From positions 1-6,856 of the forward strand of contig JAISQP010000164.1 of NCBI GenBank assembly GCA_031274115.1: a DNA stretch of 6,856 bases, read 5' to 3'. The position numbers were made by a program, and so were the translations under genes. The stretch comes from Synergistaceae bacterium. GTDB lineage: Bacteria > Synergistota > Synergistia > Synergistales > Synergistaceae. How positions within the stretch are numbered: the stretch's first letter is position 1; the number at the start of each line of letters is the position of its first letter. Under the pieces are notes generated by a model. That model did not search any database and was not told the origin of the DNA. It saw only the letters and a program-made list of their open reading frames with translations. Shown piece by piece: positions 1 to 6,856 of this stretch.

Positions 1-593
1 GAGCCTATGGATGCCGGATCGTGAGTGCCATGGATGCCTATGCCCCTCCACGGCGGGGTTTTGAGCCTGATGAACAGCGGCCCATAGGCGTTGCGGATCG
101 CTCCCTTGCCGTCCTTGAAATCGTGAGTCCATTTGGAGGAATCCTGAACCTGCTGTACGGGGAACGTGCCCTCCGGCGTCCTCAGGTCGCCCACGCGTTT
201 TTTGTCGCCTTTATTTTTCCCGACCGCCACTTTATATTCCCTTATCCTCTCGCCGTCGCGAAAGACGGTGAGCTTATGCGCTTTTTTTTCGATCAGAACA
301 GACAGGCCTCTCTGCGCCTGAACGCCTGAGAATCCGCCGCCGGGGTCATCCAGAGTCCGTCTGAGGTCGGAAAGACCTCCGGCGGGAGACTCCGGCGCGT
401 TCGCGACTGATTGGGCGGACCGCGCCTGAGCGTCTGAAGCCTCGTCTGTCTCACTGCCGTCGTATCTGGCGTTGCGAAAAAAGAATATCGCGCAGATGAG
501 AACGAAGAAGAGACATAAATAAAGCGGACTCCATGGGGCCTTGCCATTATTCGCTTTAATTTTTTTCCACTTCGGCGCGTTGTTGAAATTCAT
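1..593 (-). CDS. Membrane-anchored L,D-transpeptidase (YkuD domain), 3' end cut by window edge
   Basis: The 197 visible residues begin at ATG 593. A basic, Lys-rich N-terminus is followed by one hydrophobic segment (about residues 22-40), then a low-complexity acidic and Ala/Ser/Pro-rich linker (about 41-95), then the start of a YkuD fold from about residue 96. Family signatures visible are the opening strands (LSVLIEKKAHKLTVF), TPEGTFPV at 139-146, and GIGIHGTHDPASIG at 184-197 with the conserved His188. The window ends just before the expected SHGC motif with the catalytic Cys, so activity cannot be confirmed here. Members of this family form 3-3 peptidoglycan cross-links or attach proteins to peptidoglycan, acting outside the inner membrane. 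The start lies 5 bases after the stop of the zinc-ribbon/SH3b gene with no strong Shine-Dalgarno sequence, so coupled translation in one operon is likely. The single N-terminal segment looks like an uncleaved anchor because no clear signal-peptidase site follows it. Confidence 0.9.
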   Translation of the reverse strand, partial: MNFNNAPKWKKIKANNGKAPWSPLYLCLFFVLICAIFFFRNARYDGSETDEASDAQARSAQSVANAPESPAGGLSDLRRTLDDPGGGFSGVQAQRGLSVLIEKKAHKLTVFRDGERIREYKVAVGKNKGDKKRVGDLRTPEGTFPVQQVQDSSKWTHDFKDGKGAIRNAYGPLFIRLKTPPWRGIGIHGTHDPASIG

Positions 594-598
594 GCGGT

Positions 599-1495
599 TT
601 ACTCTATGGCAATGCTCACATATTGACCGTACATCCACCCCGTCTTGCCCTTGCCGCTGACATTGAACCAGTAATAATCCTCAGAGACGGAGGAATAGCG
701 CTGCAGCACCTCGATGGAGTCGTTCCTGTTGAAATGCAGAATGATCTTTGAATTTGTGTTCGGTTCGGCGCGCAGCCGAACGCGATCACCGAGCACCGTC
801 CCCTTGGGGTTGCCTGGAACCGGGGAGACGTCCGACGGGTTTGCCGGGACTATACGGCTGTATCCGCTCTCACTCCAACTGGACCACGAGTACCTCGGCC
901 CGCTCTGAGCGGCGGAAGCCTCCGGAGGAGAATCGCCGGCGGATTGCGGGTTCGATATGGAGACAAAGCTTCCGTCATCCGAAGTGTTCCTATTATCCAC
1001 GACCGGCGTCGATGAATCATTCGGCTGATTGACGGGCAAGTCGTCGTTCGCCCTAAACGATCTATACGCTATAGCTCCAGCGCATCCAAAGATTAAAAAA
1101 GCGATCATCATAAGCACGAGCGGGGAAAGGGAGTTCCTTTTCGGCGCGCTCTTCCTGGAAGAAACGAGATGCGGATCGAATTTGGGGACTTTGCCGTCCG
1201 TTACAGGCTGTATCCTCGGAGTGAGAATCGCCTTTCCCCTAGGATGCTTATTATCCCCCGATTCCCGCTCTCCCCTGTCCTGTCCGGCGTCGGATTCAAA
1301 CTCCGTCAGATCTGCGCCGCACGACTCACAAAAACGGTCCTCCTGGTGAACGATCTCGCCGCAATACCCGCACGTTTTCTCCGTTTGGGCCTGCCGCGCC
1401 TTATGCGACGCCGTCCTTGGCGTTCCGCACTGAGGACACGAGGATTTACCCTTTGAAAACTGGGCGCCGCAGTTGCCGCATGTATAATTACTCAT
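599..1495 (-). CDS. Double zinc-ribbon / transmembrane / SH3b protein, probable cell-wall sensor or anchor
   Basis: This 298-residue protein has four parts. Two C-x2-C...C-x2-C zinc ribbons (Cys6, 9, 20, 23 and Cys42, 45, 56, 59) are separated by a short basic linker. A charged linker (about 61-122) follows, ending in a basic stretch (SRKSAPKRN). A single transmembrane segment lies at about 124-145. A Ser/Pro/Asn-rich spacer then leads to a C-terminal bacterial SH3 domain (about 231-297; key parts GDRVRLRAEPNTNSKI, YYWFNV and GKTGWMYGQYVS). The positive-inside rule places the zinc ribbons in the cytoplasm and the SH3b domain outside, where such domains usually bind peptidoglycan or peptides. 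The spacer contains WSSWS at 204-208. It is the first gene of a pair with the L,D-transpeptidase, so a role in sensing or organising peptidoglycan is inferred. ATG 1495 is chosen because the first zinc ribbon follows directly. Purine-rich AGAGGA (1506-1511) and GAGG (1498-1501) lie upstream. The precise function is unknown. Confidence 0.85.
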   Translation of the reverse strand: MSNYTCGNCGAQFSKGKSSCPQCGTPRTASHKARQAQTEKTCGYCGEIVHQEDRFCESCGADLTEFESDAGQDRGERESGDNKHPRGKAILTPRIQPVTDGKVPKFDPHLVSSRKSAPKRNSLSPLVLMMIAFLIFGCAGAIAYRSFRANDDLPVNQPNDSSTPVVDNRNTSDDGSFVSISNPQSAGDSPPEASAAQSGPRYSWSSWSESGYSRIVPANPSDVSPVPGNPKGTVLGDRVRLRAEPNTNSKIILHFNRNDSIEVLQRYSSVSEDYYWFNVSGKGKTGWMYGQYVSIAIE

Positions 1496-1526
1496 AACCT
1501 CGCCATCCTCTCGTTTGCCGTATAAA

Positions 1527-1544
1527 TTAACGGAGAACCGTCAA
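1527..1544 (-). promoter_or_regulatory. Leader hairpin upstream of the zinc-ribbon gene
   Basis: Read on the minus strand, TTGACGG-TTCT-CCGTTAA can form a 7-pair RNA stem with a four-base loop if one G-U pair is counted. The plus-strand transcript would have an A-C mismatch at that pair, so the hairpin suits the minus-strand leader. It is flanked by further CCGT/ACGG half-sites at 1518-1521 and 1544-1547, which allow alternative pairings. It lies between the predicted start of transcription (near 1557) and ATG 1495. No U-run follows, so it is not a classic terminator. Function is unknown. Confidence 0.3.
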
Positions 1545-1560
1545 CGGCGAACTTTATACA

Positions 1561-1593
1561 ATGATTATAGCAATGATTCATCAAACAAATCAT
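1561..1593. repeat. Three ATGATT elements in the divergent control region
   Basis: ATGATT occurs at 1561-1566 and 1573-1578 as direct repeats 12 bases apart, and inverted as AATCAT at 1588-1593. The second and third copies form an inverted pair with a 9-base gap. The cluster covers the extended -10 element that reads toward the zinc-ribbon gene, a place where a repressor would act. The surrounding DNA is AT-rich, so chance recurrence is possible. Confidence 0.3.
1564..1572 (-). promoter_or_regulatory. Extended -10 promoter for the zinc-ribbon / L,D-transpeptidase pair
   Basis: The minus strand reads TGCTATAAT, which is a perfect TATAAT with the TGn extension that can replace a strong -35 box. 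No good -35 hexamer lies at the usual distance. Transcription would start near 1557, giving a leader of about 60 bases before ATG 1495. Confidence 0.5.
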
Positions 1594-1649
1594 ACATTTT
1601 TTTATATTATCGTCAACACCCTAAGTCGTACTCCGCCTTACGTTCAAGT

Positions 1650-1677
1650 TTGACACCTGCCGTATACATGATAAAGT
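1650..1677 (+). promoter_or_regulatory. Sigma-70-type promoter for ugd
   Basis: A perfect -35 box TTGACA (1650-1655) is followed after 16 bases by TAAAGT (1672-1677), a 4/6 match to TATAAT, with a TG at 1669-1670 making an extended -10. Transcription would begin near 1684 and give a leader of about 50 bases before the TTG start at 1737. The -10 box overlaps the in-frame ATG at 1668, which argues against that ATG being the start codon. Confidence 0.6.
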
Positions 1678-1723
1678 ATCCGGGCGGAAAGTTTTACGCG
1701 AAATGCACACAATTACTGACGTT

Positions 1724-1729
1724 AGGAGG
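1724..1729 (+). promoter_or_regulatory. Ribosome binding site that fixes the TTG start of ugd
   Basis: AGGAGG, a perfect anti-16S match, ends 7 bases before TTG 1737. This spacing and the family's usual N-terminus (MNICVIGVGYVG) identify TTG as the start. Confidence 0.9.
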
Positions 1730-1736
1730 AGCGTTT

Positions 1737-3059
1737 TTGAATATTTGCGTTATTGGAGTAGGATATGTTGGGCTGGTGACTGGAACCTGTTTTGCTGAAA
1801 AGGGCAATGTCGTGTGGTGCGTAGATATAGACGAACGCAGGATAGAAAAATTGAAAAGAGGCGAGATCCCAATATACGAGGAGGGATTGAGCGGGCTTGT
1901 GACGAAAAATATCTCACGCGGTCTGCTCAAATTTTCCACGGATATAAGCGAGGGGCTCGAAGGAGCGGATGTATGCTTCGTTGCCGTGGGCACTCCTCCG
2001 GGGGAAAACGGCGAGGCGGACATGAGCCAGGTGCTCTCCGCGGCGGATGGTATCAGCCGAAGCGTGAGCCAGCCTTGTTTTATCGTGATAAAATCGACAG
2101 TGCCGGTCGGAACGAACCGGATGCTCAGCGACCGCATCGGCGCCCGCTTGCGGGAGCGCGGCGTAAAACGCAACCCGGAGATCCTCTCAAACCCGGAATT
2201 TCTCAAGGAAGGGATGGCGCTCTCGGATTGCCTGCATCCAGACAGGGTCGTCGTTGGAGCTGTTTCAGAGGAGGCGCGGACTCTGATGAAAAAATTATAC
2301 GCCCCCTTTGTGGAAGAGGAGAAGATAATCTTCATGGACCCTGCCTCAGCAGAGATAACGAAATATGCCGCAAACACAATGCTGGCGTCTCGCATAAGCT
2401 TCATCAACGAGATCGCGAGCCTGTGCGACGCTGTCGGAGCCGACATCGCGCACGTCCGGAGCGGCATAGCTTCGGACAGTCGGATCGGAACGCGCTTCCT
2501 CAGCGCCGGATGCGGCTACGGAGGATCCTGTTTCCCGAAGGACGTGCAGTCGCTGTGCAGGATAGGCGAGGAACACGGGCTCGAAATGACCATCGCAGCC
2601 GCGATAGAGGAGGTGAACAGGCGGCAGAAGCTCATTCTTCCCGCCATGCTCCGCAGGCGTTTCGGCGAGACAATGGACGGATTGAAGATAGCGGTTCTGG
2701 GACTGGCGTTCAAACCAGGCACTGACGATATGAGGGAGGCGCCGTCCATAGTCCTTATAAACGACCTCCTGGAACACGGCGCGGATATCGCGGCTTACGA
2801 TCCCATAGCCGCGGCAAACGCGAGCGAAATACTGCCGCAGGTAGTTTACGAAGAGAGCGCCAGAGACGCGCTTTTAAACGCGGACGCGGCGGTACTCGTC
2901 GCCGAATGGCCGGAGTTCGCCTCGATCGACTGGGAGGAAGCGGGCCGGTCCATGAAACGCAGGATCCTCGTTGACGGGCGCAATTTTTACGACCCGTCGA
3001 AACTGGACGCTCTGGACTTCGAATACTACTGCATCGGACGAAGCCGAACGCCAGCGTGA
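1737..3059 (+). CDS. ugd: UDP-glucose 6-dehydrogenase
   Basis: This 440-residue cytoplasmic enzyme would oxidise UDP-glucose to UDP-glucuronate with two NAD+, supplying uronic acid for capsule, LPS or aminoarabinose synthesis. The N-terminal Rossmann motif is GVGYVG (7-12), with an acidic VDID (29-32) at the end of the second strand. VGTPPGENGEADMS (84-97), STVPVGT (120-126) and NPEFLKEG (152-159) match the nucleotide-sugar dehydrogenase family. ITKYAANTMLA (207-217) supplies the catalytic Lys209 and Asn213. GCGYGGSCFPKD (258-269) holds the nucleophile Cys265. The C-terminal UDP-binding domain includes GLAFKPGTDDMREAP (322-336). Length and motifs fit the Ugd/TuaD branch better than the UDP-ManNAc dehydrogenase branch. 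The frame is open back to an ATG at 1515, but the leader up to 1737 encodes nothing like the family and contains the promoter, so TTG 1737 is chosen. The gene appears to be transcribed alone and converges on the five-gene minus-strand operon. Confidence 0.95.
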   Translation: MNICVIGVGYVGLVTGTCFAEKGNVVWCVDIDERRIEKLKRGEIPIYEEGLSGLVTKNISRGLLKFSTDISEGLEGADVCFVAVGTPPGENGEADMSQVLSAADGISRSVSQPCFIVIKSTVPVGTNRMLSDRIGARLRERGVKRNPEILSNPEFLKEGMALSDCLHPDRVVVGAVSEEARTLMKKLYAPFVEEEKIIFMDPASAEITKYAANTMLASRISFINEIASLCDAVGADIAHVRSGIASDSRIGTRFLSAGCGYGGSCFPKDVQSLCRIGEEHGLEMTIAAAIEEVNRRQKLILPAMLRRRFGETMDGLKIAVLGLAFKPGTDDMREAPSIVLINDLLEHGADIAAYDPIAAANASEILPQVVYEESARDALLNADAAVLVAEWPEFASIDWEEAGRSMKRRILVDGRNFYDPSKLDALDFEYYCIGRSRTPA

Positions 3060-3072
3060 ACCGAGGCTTGAG

Positions 3073-3672
3073 TCACTTCATCTCAATGAACGCGTCCTGT
3101 TTATACACTGGGTTGTGGTTTGTGACGACGATGCCGGCTTTGATATACCTCACGCCTCGATTTAAAGCGTGCCACCTGGTCAGGAGGATTTCGTTCTCTA
3201 TATAAGTATAATTTGCGATCGTGTACGGATCCATGAAATAAACCCTCTTGTCGTCGTACCCTATCGCGATCGCGTAGTGCCCGTCGTTCCACGTATCGGA
3301 GTAATCATGGTCGTCTTCATCGTCCCAGGCCTGAATGATGCAGATCACGACCCGGTCGAGGTCTATGCATACCTTCAGATCCCGCAGCGTCATGTTCTCC
3401 CGAATCTCCGCCCGAACTCCCTTATCGTTCAGGAATTTTCTAATGTCCTCCATCCCGGTGCCTTGCTGGGGGGTCGTGCCGACCGCGAGCTCCAGCACAT
3501 CCTGGCTGCATTCGATTCCGTTGTGGTACAGAACGGACTGCAGCGCGGCGACGCCGCACGTGTAAAAAGTCGCCTGACCGGTCTGTGGGATTCTGATCAA
3601 TTTGACGGGGCGAAACGGCGCAGTTCCGCCGGCGCCGCATAAAGCGGCGTTGTGTGTGTTCAGGAAGAGCAT
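3073..3672 (-). CDS. C39-like papain-fold cysteine peptidase (Peptidase_C39_2 type)
   Basis: The 199 residues carry the C39/papain-like pattern. Gln33 is followed by Cys39 (QATFYTCGVAAL, the Q-x5-C-G arrangement), then His132 in DGHYAIAIGYD, then Asp148 in VYFMDPY. These are a plausible oxyanion-hole residue and a Cys-His-Asp triad. C39 domains process double-glycine leader peptides when fused to transporters. Stand-alone C39_2 proteins are mostly of unknown function. There is no ABC transporter here, no transmembrane segment and no signal peptide, so the product is predicted to be cytoplasmic unless exported in some other way. ATG 3672 lies inside the end of the preceding gene (13-base overlap) and has GGAG at 3679-3682 with a 6-base spacer, so translational coupling is likely. 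Upstream the frame meets a stop near 3735 without giving a signal peptide. A weaker alternative start is TTG at residue 25. Confidence 0.8.
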   Translation of the reverse strand: MLFLNTHNAALCGAGGTAPFRPVKLIRIPQTGQATFYTCGVAALQSVLYHNGIECSQDVLELAVGTTPQQGTGMEDIRKFLNDKGVRAEIRENMTLRDLKVCIDLDRVVICIIQAWDDEDDHDYSDTWNDGHYAIAIGYDDKRVYFMDPYTIANYTYIENEILLTRWHALNRGVRYIKAGIVVTNHNPVYKQDAFIEMK

Positions 3673-4256
3673 CTCGCTCTCCGAAAAACCGCGAAAACGA
3701 GCAGCGCGGACGCGAGAGGCGCGGCGCCGGAGTCACAGCCGCTCGCGGCATCCGGAATATCCGGCTTTGACGTGCCCTGCCGCCATATCGCACAGTCCGC
3801 GTTGATTTCGCACTGCCCGACCGTGTCCACCTCTATGAAGCCGGAGATATTAACCGTGCCGGAGTTGACGCTGGTCAGGACCACTCTGTACGTCAGCCCG
3901 TCTATCGCGAACGGAGGGAGATAGAAAGGTTCGCTCGAGGTCGGGTTGAAGCTATTGATGACAAGCGACGCCGGCAGCTCGTATTCGTCGTGGTAACTCC
4001 ATGTGTTGATCCTGAGTTCGCTGGCGTTGAGTTCGCCCCATACCTCATACCCTGATACGTACTCGGCGCTCCCGTTCAGATCGGACTTGATATCGAGCGT
4101 TCCGCCGGCCCGGAGCGAAACCCGGAGCACGCTTTTCTCGGCAAAACCGCCCCCGTCGACGAGCCACCTGCCGCCAAGAGTGGATGCCTCCGCGTATACC
4201 GGCGCCAAAAGCGTCAGAGCAAGAATAACCGTCACAGCCAACAGTGTTTTTCTCAA
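3660..4256 (-). CDS. Secreted beta-rich protein with Synerg-CTERM-like sorting tail
   Basis: The 198 residues begin with a clear signal peptide: MRK, a hydrophobic core (about 5-20) and a likely cleavage site at VYA-EA or AEA-S near residues 22-25. The middle (about 26-165) alternates polar and hydrophobic residues as in a beta-sandwich, and I recognise no known domain. Cys149 and Cys155 could form a disulfide. The C-terminus has SGCDSG (172-177), a hydrophobic run (about 178-191) and Arg192-Arg193. This matches the tripartite Synerg-CTERM type of sorting signal in Synergistota, in which a motif, a membrane segment and a basic cluster direct processing at the cell surface. The start is TTG 4256, because an in-frame TGA sits 6 bases upstream and the signal peptide begins here. 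A GAGGGGAG Shine-Dalgarno sequence (4267-4274) is 10 bases away. It is preceded by the ArnD-like gene (64-base gap) and overlaps the C39 peptidase gene by 13 bases. Confidence 0.8.
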   Translation of the reverse strand: MRKTLLAVTVILALTLLAPVYAEASTLGGRWLVDGGGFAEKSVLRVSLRAGGTLDIKSDLNGSAEYVSGYEVWGELNASELRINTWSYHDEYELPASLVINSFNPTSSEPFYLPPFAIDGLTYRVVLTSVNSGTVNISGFIEVDTVGQCEINADCAIWRQGTSKPDIPDAASGCDSGAAPLASALLVFAVFRRARCSS

Positions 4257-4266
4257 GAAAATTCAT

Positions 4267-4274
4267 CTCCCCTC
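4267..4274 (-). promoter_or_regulatory. Ribosome binding site for the TTG start at 4256
   Basis: The minus strand reads GAGGGGAG, then ATGAATTTTC, then TTG. The ATG directly after the purine run is out of frame with the signal peptide and too close to be served by it. The 10-base spacer to TTG is longer than ideal. Confidence 0.5.
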
Positions 4275-4320
4275 GCAATTTTTCCATGGAAGCGCTGATT
4301 TGCAGCGACCTCCGTAACTC

Positions 4321-5136
4321 TTAAACCATCTGCATCGTCACAGCGCGAGACATTCCAGCGGCTTTGACGGTCACTATCTCGCACGACGGCAACGCCGCGG
4401 CGTCAACGCTCTTAACCACGGTATTCAGACTAATAAATTTAACGCCTTCCCTCACGGAACACAAGAGGAATTCGTAAAATGGTCCAAAAATTTCAGGGAT
4501 TATCGCGATAACCGCATTCAAAGGCAGGACGTTCAGCCCGTTTTTGATATTGCCGTTGAGTTCCTTGAATCGAGAGCGCGCCTCCGACTCGGAAACGCGC
4601 CGCAGCGCGACCTCCAGCGGAGGAAGGGTGGACGGAATCTGAGGGGTGTCGAATACTTTCCTCGACATCTTTGGAAGAAACGGACAGAATCCAAACGTGT
4701 CGCTGCAGTATTTGAAACGAATATCGTCCTGTATCCTGAGGCTTATGTAGTTTACGCGAAACCCAGGGGCCGCGAACCCGTCAGGGCGTCGGCCGGTCCT
4801 CCGCGCGAAGTACTCCACCGCGCGTTTTAAATCCGCCTCGATCGTAGTGTCCCTCATCTTTTCCAGGCGAGTCTCCCACTCGTGAGGGCTCCATCCATAG
4901 ATGCCGCAGTCCTGCCCCCTGCGGGAGGCGTCCCTCAGAATGCCGGGCGCTGACGGCACTATCTCCTTCCCCTCTCCGAACAGCCTCGATACGACGGACC
5001 CGCTTCCCTCGGTTCCCATGCCGAAGAAAAAACTGCCCGCAAGAGATAATTCATCGAAAGCGTCGAGAAGCTTCGGCACGCCGTCTCTATAAGCTCCCAG
5101 CGTGTCAACATAAATCTTGAGGGCAATGATTTTCAT
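4321..5136 (-). CDS. ArnD-like NodB-fold protein lacking most catalytic residues
   Basis: The 271 residues resemble ArnD, the deformylase that removes formyl from undecaprenyl-phosphate 4-formamido-arabinose. Matches in order are VDT with GVPKLLDAF (10-27), FFFGMG (36-41), YGWSPHEWETR (80-90), APGFRVN (123-129), YCSD (143-146) and TPQIPSTLPPLEVAL (164-178). Compared from memory with E. coli ArnD, the key positions differ. The catalytic-base Asp of DVDT is Tyr9, with only the second Asp (Asp11) kept. The metal-binding HxxxH is Tyr80 and Pro84. The last-motif His is probably Asn207. Arg127 and Asp146 remain. This points to a non-hydrolytic or altered protein, although an unusual active site using His85 is not excluded. 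It has no signal peptide or membrane segment. The start overlaps the methyltransferase stop as ATGA and has no clear Shine-Dalgarno sequence, so its translation probably depends on the upstream gene. ArnD-like ancestry is fairly secure, but present function is unknown. Confidence 0.75.
   Translation of the reverse strand: MKIIALKIYVDTLGAYRDGVPKLLDAFDELSLAGSFFFGMGTEGSGSVVSRLFGEGKEIVPSAPGILRDASRRGQDCGIYGWSPHEWETRLEKMRDTTIEADLKRAVEYFARRTGRRPDGFAAPGFRVNYISLRIQDDIRFKYCSDTFGFCPFLPKMSRKVFDTPQIPSTLPPLEVALRRVSESEARSRFKELNGNIKNGLNVLPLNAVIAIIPEIFGPFYEFLLCSVREGVKFISLNTVVKSVDAAALPSCEIVTVKAAGMSRAVTMQMV
5133..5136 (-). other. ATGA stop/start overlap coupling methyltransferase and ArnD-like genes
   Basis: The methyltransferase TGA (5135-5133) overlaps the ArnD-like ATG (5136-5134). 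No Shine-Dalgarno sequence lies at the usual distance upstream, so termination-reinitiation would set a fixed ratio between the two proteins. Confidence 0.85.
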
Positions 5137-5786
5137 GGCGTACGGTCAGAGAGCTCTCCCGGACCTTTCGGTTTACGGAACACCTCCACCTTTGCCGGAG
5201 GAAGGTTGTACAGGACAACTTTGGATCTCAGCTTTCTGAAACTCTTCGGTATGAACGGCATCTCCCCTATCAGCGCATAGGTGAACTGCACAAAGAGCCC
5301 GCCGGGAGCAAGGATCTTCTCAACCTCGGCCATTATCGAAACGCTGACATCAGCCGGCAGAGTTCGGAACGGCAGACTCGACACTACCGCCCTCACCGGA
5401 CCGCATTTTACACACGACCTCATCTCTTCAGCCGGGCAGCAGATGACGTTTACGCTGGAAAATCGACTTTGGAGACAATCAGCCAGGGCTTTTGATCTCT
5501 CGATGACAATCAGCCTCGACGGGGAGGCCCCATGACGTAACAGAGCTTCCGTCACCGGTCCTGTTCCAGCGCCAAGCTCAATGAGATAACCAGACTTCAA
5601 AAACGATTGAGTGAGCGCGGCGACCATCTCGTCGGAAAGCGCCGGCGAGCTTGCGCACAGCGTACCCATATTCCTCGGCGCCCTTATCAGCTCTCTCAGG
5701 AGAAGGAACTGCCGCGCCAAGCTATGCCTCCTGCGGTCGATGAAGCCTGAAAAACCGTTTTTCGACACCGTGGAATCTTCCGTCAT
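5133..5786 (-). CDS. PmtA-like SAM-dependent methyltransferase (phospholipid N-methyltransferase family)
   Basis: The 217 residues form a class I methyltransferase. After a basic N-terminus, RELIRAPRNMGTLCASSPAL (31-50) matches the characteristic 'F-L-x-P-x-x-(V/M)-G-x-x-x-(P/S)-S-S' entry segment of PmtA-like proteins. The SAM-binding loop is IELGAGTG (69-76), with the ribose-binding acidic Glu96 in VIERS. SSLPF (136-140) is the post-strand-4 motif, and LAPGGLFVQFTYAL (159-172) is also typical. The family methylates phosphatidylethanolamine or related lipids at the membrane face. KsgA-type rRNA dimethylases share the fold but have N-(L/I)-P-(Y/F) with an Asn, absent here. The substrate cannot be fixed from sequence. 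ATG 5786 has no good Shine-Dalgarno sequence. A GTG at residue 7, with GGAAG 8 bases upstream, is a possible alternative start. The gene follows the flavodiiron gene after 26 bases and overlaps the ArnD-like gene by 4 bases. Confidence 0.8.
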   Translation of the reverse strand: MTEDSTVSKNGFSGFIDRRRHSLARQFLLLRELIRAPRNMGTLCASSPALSDEMVAALTQSFLKSGYLIELGAGTGPVTEALLRHGASPSRLIVIERSKALADCLQSRFSSVNVICCPAEEMRSCVKCGPVRAVVSSLPFRTLPADVSVSIMAEVEKILAPGGLFVQFTYALIGEMPFIPKSFRKLRSKVVLYNLPPAKVEVFRKPKGPGELSDRTP

Positions 5787-5812
5787 GTGAGGATCATGGC
5801 TTCAACGCCAGC

Positions 5813-6856
5813 TCATTTTCTATTTACAGCTTCTGCCATCTTCACGCCAAGCTCGGCGCAAAGCTCGAGGTCGGCGTTCTTCGGGCGCGACTTTATCTCT
5901 ATCGCGGGTTCGATCAGACTCCAACCGCCCTTCGAACGCTCTACAAAAGCCTTCATCTCCCTCAGCGCCGCGCTGCTCCAGCTATATGAGCCGCACAGAC
6001 CTATAGCCCTGCCCTTCATCATCTTGTTCTCCAGCAGACGGAGAAGCGAGGCGACCGGAGGAAAAAGCTCCATATTGTACGTGCACGCCGCCAAGACGAG
6101 TCCGGCGTAACGCCATATATCGGTCGTCACGTACGACATGTTCGTGCGAGAGGCGTCATAAACTATGACCTTTTTCTCTCCCGCCTTCGAGAGACCTCTG
6201 GCTATCGCGTCCGACGCTATTTTAGTGTTGCCGTACATTGAGCCGTAAACCACTACTACGCCGTCTTCCGTCTCCTGCCTGCTCCATTTTTCATACAGCT
6301 CTATCACCGTGTTCGGGTCGCTGCGCCAGACCGGACCGTGAGCCGGGCATATCAAAGCTATGTCGAGCGATCTGACTTTTTCGAGGGCCTTCTGCGCCGG
6401 CCCGGAAAACCTGCCGACTATATTGACGTAGTAACGCATCATCTCGCTGACGGCTAATTGCAGGTTCGCCTCGTCATCGAACAGCCCGCCCTCCAACGCG
6501 CCGAACCCGCCAAATATGTCGCTCGAAAAAAGTATACGATGCGTGGCGTCATAAGTCACCATGCTCTCAGGCCAGTGAACCATGGGGGCCAGAGCGAAAA
6601 CGAGCTTGCGCCCGCCAATGTCCAGGACCTCGCCCTCTTTTACCTCGACCACGCCGTCTTCTATTCCGTAGAAATTTTTTATCATCTCCGCCGTCTTTGT
6701 GTTCCCGACGAATTTGACCCCCGGATAAAGGCGGCGGATCAGGGCAAACGAGCCCGCGTGATCCGGCTCCATGTGATTGACTATGACATAGTCAAGTCCG
6801 CGCCCATTCAGCAGATGGTTCAGCCTGTCGAGGAAATCGTCGATAAAGGAGCTTTT
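5813..6856 (-). CDS. fprA: Flavodiiron protein (A-type flavoprotein), 5' end cut by window edge
   Basis: This is a partial gene: 347 residues are visible and about 50 N-terminal ones are missing from a family length near 400. The frame is open to the last base, so the ATG at 6772 is internal. The metallo-beta-lactamase-like domain holds the diiron ligands His28, Glu30, Asp32 and His33 (NHMEPDHAG), His94 (VHWPES), Asp113 (SSDIFGGFG) and His173 (PAHGPVW), counted from the visible start. Their spacing matches the family. The C-terminal flavodoxin domain starts near 198 and has the FMN phosphate loop YGSMYGNT (204-211). No extra rubredoxin or flavin-reductase domain follows. Such proteins reduce O2 to water or NO to N2O in the cytoplasm of anaerobes, with electrons usually from rubredoxin. 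Sequence alone does not decide between O2 and NO. It heads the visible part of the five-gene run. The symbol is the family name, not proof of orthology. Confidence 0.93.
   Translation of the reverse strand, partial: KSSFIDDFLDRLNHLLNGRGLDYVIVNHMEPDHAGSFALIRRLYPGVKFVGNTKTAEMIKNFYGIEDGVVEVKEGEVLDIGGRKLVFALAPMVHWPESMVTYDATHRILFSSDIFGGFGALEGGLFDDEANLQLAVSEMMRYYVNIVGRFSGPAQKALEKVRSLDIALICPAHGPVWRSDPNTVIELYEKWSRQETEDGVVVVYGSMYGNTKIASDAIARGLSKAGEKKVIVYDASRTNMSYVTTDIWRYAGLVLAACTYNMELFPPVASLLRLLENKMMKGRAIGLCGSYSWSSAALREMKAFVERSKGGWSLIEPAIEIKSRPKNADLELCAELGVKMAEAVNRK

Follow-up and report, generated by a model that had tools for sequence, protein, structure and literature searches.

ArnD-Derived Putative Pseudoenzymes in a Flavodiiron–Methyltransferase Operon of Synergistaceae

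Introduction

The window analyzed here is a stretch of 6,856 nucleotides from a Synergistaceae bacterium (assembly GCA_031274115.1, contig JAISQP010000164.1, positions 1 to 6,856 of the forward strand). It carries a gene related to arnD, which encodes 4-deoxy-4-formamido-L-arabinose-phosphoundecaprenol deformylase, and raises the question of what such a gene does when the catalytic residues of the enzyme are gone and its neighbors are those of a different operon. The original prediction, made from the sequence alone, described an ArnD-like protein with systematically replaced catalytic residues. The explanation that we favor, and hold to be fairly likely as a whole, is that the gene belongs to an ArnD-derived family of pseudoenzymes and is what survives of an arn operon that once stood here, now serving in a different, modulating or accessory role within an operon with a flavodiiron protein (FprA) and a methyltransferase.

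Replacement of the ArnD Catalytic Residues

4321..5136, minus strand: ArnD-derived NodB-fold putative pseudoenzyme of 271 amino acids, with the motifs IYVDT / YGWSPHEW / AAPGFR / YCSDTFG / PLNA

The reading frame is intact from an ATG at 5136 to a stop codon ending at 4321, and its start overlaps the stop of the methyltransferase gene by 4 bp, as expected from the intact, translationally coupled frame described in the original prediction. Aligned with Salmonella ArnD (8t0j), IYVDT falls on IDVDT, YGWSPHEW on HAWDHHAW, and PLNA on TIHA, so that Tyr9, Tyr80, Pro84, and Asn207 occupy the places of an Asp and three His residues, respectively. Asp11, Asp146, the SD pair, and the IPxTLP segment are retained. 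In the general NodB scheme set out in PMC10967932, motif 1 carries a pair of Asp, one for catalysis and one for metal, motif 2 the two His that bind the metal, and motif 5 the late His. Asp9 and Asp11 of ArnD may divide the base and metal roles either way; with both metal His lost, the metal site is incomplete.

The fold itself appears to be that of ArnD. The predicted structure of the window protein (predicted local distance difference test 92.3, predicted template modeling score 0.91) has the solved ArnD structure 8t0j as its top match with both Foldseek and VIA-align. The window protein scores 99.6 bits with the curated ArnD model NF011923, below its cut-off of 382 bits, which five canonical ArnD copies miss as well (216–242 bits).

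The replacement is common to a family of proteins. The window protein and its 92 BLAST matches were aligned, and 89 of the 93 were kept as the family after setting aside P0088, P0089, P0092, and P0093 (27–40% BLAST identity). All four of these have Asp9; three are fully canonical and P0092 is not. Among the 89, no readable position holds Asp at 9 or His at 80, 84, or 207, and the complete Asp/His triad that would have contradicted the original claim was looked for and is absent: The ArnD catalytic site (two His, catalytic Asp, late His) is missing from the window protein and from every readable member. In its place stand Y9 (75/83), D11 (75/83), Y80 (77/87), P84 (87/88), and N207 (76/88), with the full signature Y-D-Y-P-N commonest (62 of 89), within a new fixed pattern of YxD, YGWNPxEWxxR, SDTFG, and LPxNA. 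The window protein is atypical in having Ser83, where 97% of the family has Asn. The replacement goes well beyond what chance would give.

Trivial explanations do not hold. The window protein is not a single degraded outlier, as the change is shared by 89 proteins and the homologs with canonical motifs form other clades; an assembly artifact or frameshift is ruled out by the full-length gene in 15 genome loci. A new Cys-based site built from C77, C144, and C252 is likewise ruled out, since the same Cys residues occur in canonical P0088 and P0089.

What we have shown, as far as sequence comparison reaches, is a conserved family that descends from ArnD, lacks its catalytic residues, and is placed in another operon, bearing out the claim of systematic replacement. 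With metal ligands and catalytic residues gone from an intact and conserved frame, the protein has the apparent marks of a NodB-fold pseudoenzyme. It is best read as a putative pseudoenzyme with respect to metal-dependent deformylation, because a complete metal site requires the two His. The window protein would hold no catalytic metal and would not deformylate undecaprenyl-phosphate-Ara4FN.

Selection and Remodeling Across the Phylum

The family alignment was used to scan 185 genomes of the phylum (named members Synergistaceae/Synergistales), of which 123 matched. The style of their isolate names suggests that the named Synergistaceae may come from termite or cockroach guts. The resulting sample of 120 different ArnD-like sequences consists of 17 from the family (copies or fragments), two distant sequences (L018 and L019), and 101 others; two fragments from G097 and 17 weak matches (<30 bits, the level of ordinary polysaccharide deacetylases) were left out. 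Among the 101 others, 95 have the full D9-D11-H80-H84-H207 set, two fragments agree with it, and four deviate (L102, L109, L113, and L124). The canonical set of 97 was selected by these five residues; segment length and positions 148, 173, and 175 are independent of that selection.

Two features absent from the original prediction emerge from this work, one being the likely origin of the gene, taken up below, and the other a 27-residue deletion after residue 52 relative to ArnD. The stretch at residues 42–61 has 20 amino acids in 81 of 86 family members versus 47 in all 96 readable canonical copies. R148, T173, and D175 are invariant in canonical copies and altered in the family, and the changes T173P and D175E lie directly after IPxTLP, a segment that is itself retained, as first noted. 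Arg127 is kept relative to Salmonella ArnD, but 85% of the canonical copies in the phylum have Gln there, against Arg in 91% of the family. In total, 16 positions are fixed differently in the family and the canonical set, eight of them in or beside catalytic motifs (9, 80, 83, 84, 127, 148, 205, and 207), and 42 positions at least 90% conserved in the family have another residue or are variable in the canonical set.

The possibility that the gene is an orphan arnD, slowly decaying after the loss of its operon, has to be weighed here. Other orphan copies in the phylum (L102, L109, L113, and L124) look relaxed, with ratios of nonsynonymous to synonymous substitution (dN/dS) of 0.16–0.39 in five pairs that include orphans versus 0.09–0.21 in five canonical pairs, and the family gene was lost outright in two genomes of the group. 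Against decay, the family has a median dN/dS of 0.16 (68 of 120 pairs with dS <2, from 16 sequences) over a deep divergence, and none of the 16 sequences compared has a premature stop codon. The uniform segment length and the five-residue signature point the same way, as do 14 invariant columns in 81 alignment rows, four of which are from outside the family. The family is, by these measures, evolving under purifying selection; a dN/dS clearly below 1 largely refutes decay, which we regard as highly improbable and which the original prediction, too, did not see in the sequence.

The same remodeling bears on the proposal that undecaprenyl-phosphate-Ara4FN, or some comparable lipid-linked sugar, is still bound by the protein but not cleaved. 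The retained ArnD fold and IPxTLP segment would suit such a role, as would the adjoining gene for a lipid methyltransferase–like protein. However, the 27-residue segment present in the canonical copies is gone, the otherwise invariant R148, T173, and D175 are altered, and in 10 of the 16 family genomes the searches turned up neither ArnT nor canonical ArnD, although these ten are draft assemblies, where a gene not found may still exist. This first proposal for the function is disfavored and now seems very unlikely. ArnT occurs in the other six (G003, G004, G008, G014, G015, and G016), each with an ArnC match above 300 bits, and canonical ArnD in four of the six. A role as an accessory of the Arn pathway is disfavored, given ArnT in just 6 of 16 genomes.

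Probable Origin at a Former arn Operon Site

The window places the gene among the following neighbors:

5133..5786, minus strand: PmtA/OlsG-like (phospholipid or ornithine-lipid N-methyltransferase-like) protein; Methyltransf_25, 1.3e-7
5813..6856, minus strand: flavodiiron protein of the FprA type (ODP lactamase plus flavodoxin), its 5' end beyond the window; ODP, 9.3e-16, and Flavodoxin_1, 5.4e-9
3660..4256, minus strand: secreted-looking protein with a signal-peptide-like N terminus and a C-terminal GCDSG, hydrophobic stretch, and basic tail
3073..3672, minus strand: protein with a C39-like papain-fold peptidase domain; Peptidase_C39_2, 7.6e-11
1737..3059, plus strand: UDP-glucose 6-dehydrogenase (Ugd) with a TTG start; TIGR03026, 432 bits, above the cut-off
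599–1495, minus strand: protein with N-terminal zinc ribbons and a C-terminal bacterial SH3 domain, from domain search
3–638, minus strand: partial protein, L,D-transpeptidase-like by eye

The family is represented in a 141-tip maximum-likelihood tree by 15 loci and by 22 of its 89 proteins. All 37 family tips form one clade on a long stem (0.73), and together with five canonical tips (P0088, L045, L046, L050, and L051) they make a 42-tip clade with an ultrafast bootstrap (UFBoot) of 100. Four genomes (G003, G004, G015, and G016) carry both the family gene and a canonical ArnD. A recent duplication of that canonical copy is ruled out as the origin, as the copies concerned (L021–L024) lie in other clades of the tree and because the FprA site instead matches the arn site of four sister genomes.

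In these canonical sisters (G138, G171, G172, and G173, loci L206–L209; four of four), the divergent Mcm block and YvyF–FprA pair of the family loci are followed by a spacer of 1.6–3.7 kb, then by ArnT–ArnB–ArnC–ArnFT–ArnADH–ArnD, with Ugd next. The spacer contains a gene that resembles a chemotaxis receptor by eye. From this gene order, the ancestral site would have read YvyF–FprA–spacer–arnT–arnB–arnC–arnFT–arnADH–arnD. In the simplest history, one clade of Synergistaceae would have lost or replaced the genes between FprA and arnD and gained the methyltransferase in their place, and the remaining arnD would have stayed at the site and changed. The Ugd of the window is 46–48% identical to the Ugd beside arnD in the four sisters, where the only other match above threshold, found in two of them, is 25–28% identical. 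This Ugd, now in the opposite orientation, is tentatively the old far flank of the arn locus.

Operon Partners and Possible Roles

Family loci run in the order YvyF-like zinc ribbon, FprA, PmtA/OlsG-like methyltransferase, and putative pseudoenzyme, followed in some by the secreted protein and C39 peptidase. Upstream, on the opposite strand, lies a methylmalonyl-CoA block (for example, with Mcm in L001, L002, and L003; only a remainder in L010). The methyltransferase is adjacent to the family gene in all 16 family genomes, with FprA ahead in 15 and a contig edge in the remaining one. The two adjoin in 17 of 17 loci where the stretch holds both, with −4 to 56 bp between the methyltransferase stop and the family gene start (17 loci including the window). 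The window methyltransferase scores 76.8 bits with the OlsG model and 68.7 bits with PmtA, and the window FprA 198.9 bits with PRK11921, all under the respective cut-offs. Of 185 genomes, 104 have a match to the methyltransferase, above 158 bits in 19 and below 90 bits in the others. The 19 comprise all 16 family genomes and also G157, G159, and G160. The methyltransferase is the sole recognized gene on the 4.4-kb contig of G157.

With this company, the remodeled pocket or surface would bind another ligand or a protein, and the family protein would most likely modulate, rather than constitute, the neighboring methyltransferase or otherwise serve the FprA operon as an accessory.

Several observations weigh against this explanation. 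In G159 and G160, YvyF–FprA–methyltransferase is kept without the family gene, and neither is among the 123 matched genomes. The combined FprA and methyltransferase tree pairs G160 with L009 (UFBoot 97) and groups G159 with L012 and L015 (UFBoot 100); because they nest at different places, this looks like two separate losses of the family gene with the operon retained. A regulatory role is argued from adjacency alone, for a gene that was lost twice. On the history of the site, the sisters' spacer ahead of arnT has no methyltransferase match, so that a second event is required, and the support for the family clade itself is only UFBoot 86. In L001 no Ugd separates the C39 gene from the next gene in common, a Ugd search of G001, G003, and G007 found none, and G004 and G015 have a Ugd close to a canonical arn operon that is distinct from this site. 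These cases downgrade Ugd from proof of the old far flank to the tentative reading given above, and the ambiguity slightly lowers confidence in the explanation as a whole. In the pocket, most members retain D11 and D146, Arg stands at 127, and some chemistry may persist there. Conservation at the four replaced positions is moderate (mean entropy 0.49 versus a family mean of 1.21, with 6% of random foursomes equally low), and other residues occur at positions 9 (F, H, L, C), 80 (C, S), and 207 (S, D). Y9, Y80, and N207 are therefore favored in the family without being indispensable.

The roles first proposed for the gene fare differently in this light. An obligate subunit or scaffold of the methyltransferase is disfavored, since two nested genomes keep the operon without the gene; a regulator it may still be. 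A new active site, with the pocket rebuilt for another, metal-independent reaction as in the PuuE allantoinase, stays a candidate, albeit an unlikely one. Some members have F, L, C, H, or S at positions 9 and 80, a variability uncommon in catalytic residues, and the neighboring genes point to no substrate. The likeness to PuuE is one of fold. A bolder account is possible but doubtful: A lone lipid A–modification enzyme would have been rebuilt in situ into either a metal-free enzyme with new chemistry or an allosteric regulator of the methyltransferase, with orphan copies in the phylum losing catalytic residues in parallel.

Relation to Known Proteins

Relative to ArnD (8t0j, NF011923), the family lacks D9, H80, H84, and H207 and the 27-residue segment, has altered R148, T173, and D175, and lies outside an arn operon. 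Loss of catalytic residues from a NodB fold is likewise found in BA3943 (7bkf, so titled in the PDB), BA0150 (4m1b), and EcCDA (2vyo). These belong to polysaccharide-deacetylase lineages, are not ArnD derived, and ranked well below ArnD with Foldseek and VIA-align. PuuE (3cl6) shares the NodB fold but is a metal-free, active enzyme of another lineage. In PMC10967932, EcCDA and BA0150 are given as known NodB-fold pseudoenzymes, and EcCDA, in which the two metal His are missing along with the catalytic Asp and the Arg, is called probably inactive. Pseudoenzymes with this fold are thus already known, and it is the lineage and the traceable operon origin that set the family apart. No ArnD-derived pseudoenzyme was found in the open literature among the matches listed. 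We know of no comparable operon origin for CE4/NodB pseudoenzymes.

The conversion from enzyme to pseudoenzyme can be traced here by gene order, with copies related to the functional ancestor at the same site, a changed copy, and two later losses. For annotation, a gene labeled "ArnD" or "polysaccharide deacetylase" in one of these genomes should not be taken as a sign of L-Ara4N lipid A or polymyxin resistance.

Orphan arnD Copies and Other Features

Four further arnD copies stand outside arn operons and have lost a catalytic His or Asp:

L109, 3527, minus strand: orphan arnD copy
L124, 5007, minus strand: orphan arnD copy
L102, 4989–5909, plus strand: orphan arnD copy
L113, 4989–5861, minus strand: orphan arnD copy

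L109 and L124 are sister copies (UFBoot 100). All four look to be under relaxed constraint, judging from their codon changes. Their genomes give only weak ArnT matches, with scores of 29–44 bits with the family model and 80–90 bits or none with a Synergistota ArnT query. Within the stretches read, which differ in length, another arn gene scores above threshold for 92 of 97 canonical, 0 of 17 family, and 0 of 4 degenerate orphan representatives; among the family representatives, L016 and L158 are fragments of one genome, and several stretches end at contig edges. These independent copies may represent earlier stages of the same process, which makes it possible to study in what order the segment was lost and the pocket and partner changed. 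L113 carries Asn83 and Pro84 like the family, apparently by convergence. P0092, a public protein of 344 amino acids with 30% identity, keeps Asp9 but has none of Asp11, the two motif 2 His, and the late His, and represents another noncanonical lineage.

ArnT starts ~10 kb downstream in L004. On contig C78 of G008, an ArnC match of 484.5 bits (319–365 bits in the others) lies beside a partial ArnT, possibly on foreign DNA.

The secreted-looking protein at 3660..4256 has no Pfam match and no meaningful NCBIfam match. Its tail resembles what we take to be the Synergist-CTERM sorting tail, a term for which no paper was found in the open literature. Its cluster, c4, is present in 9 of 17 family loci including the window, and tblastn adds L009. 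The C39 peptidase gene is found at the same place in L001, L003, L004, L006, and L016, and in L001 it is followed by a gene similar to that at 599–1495 of the window.
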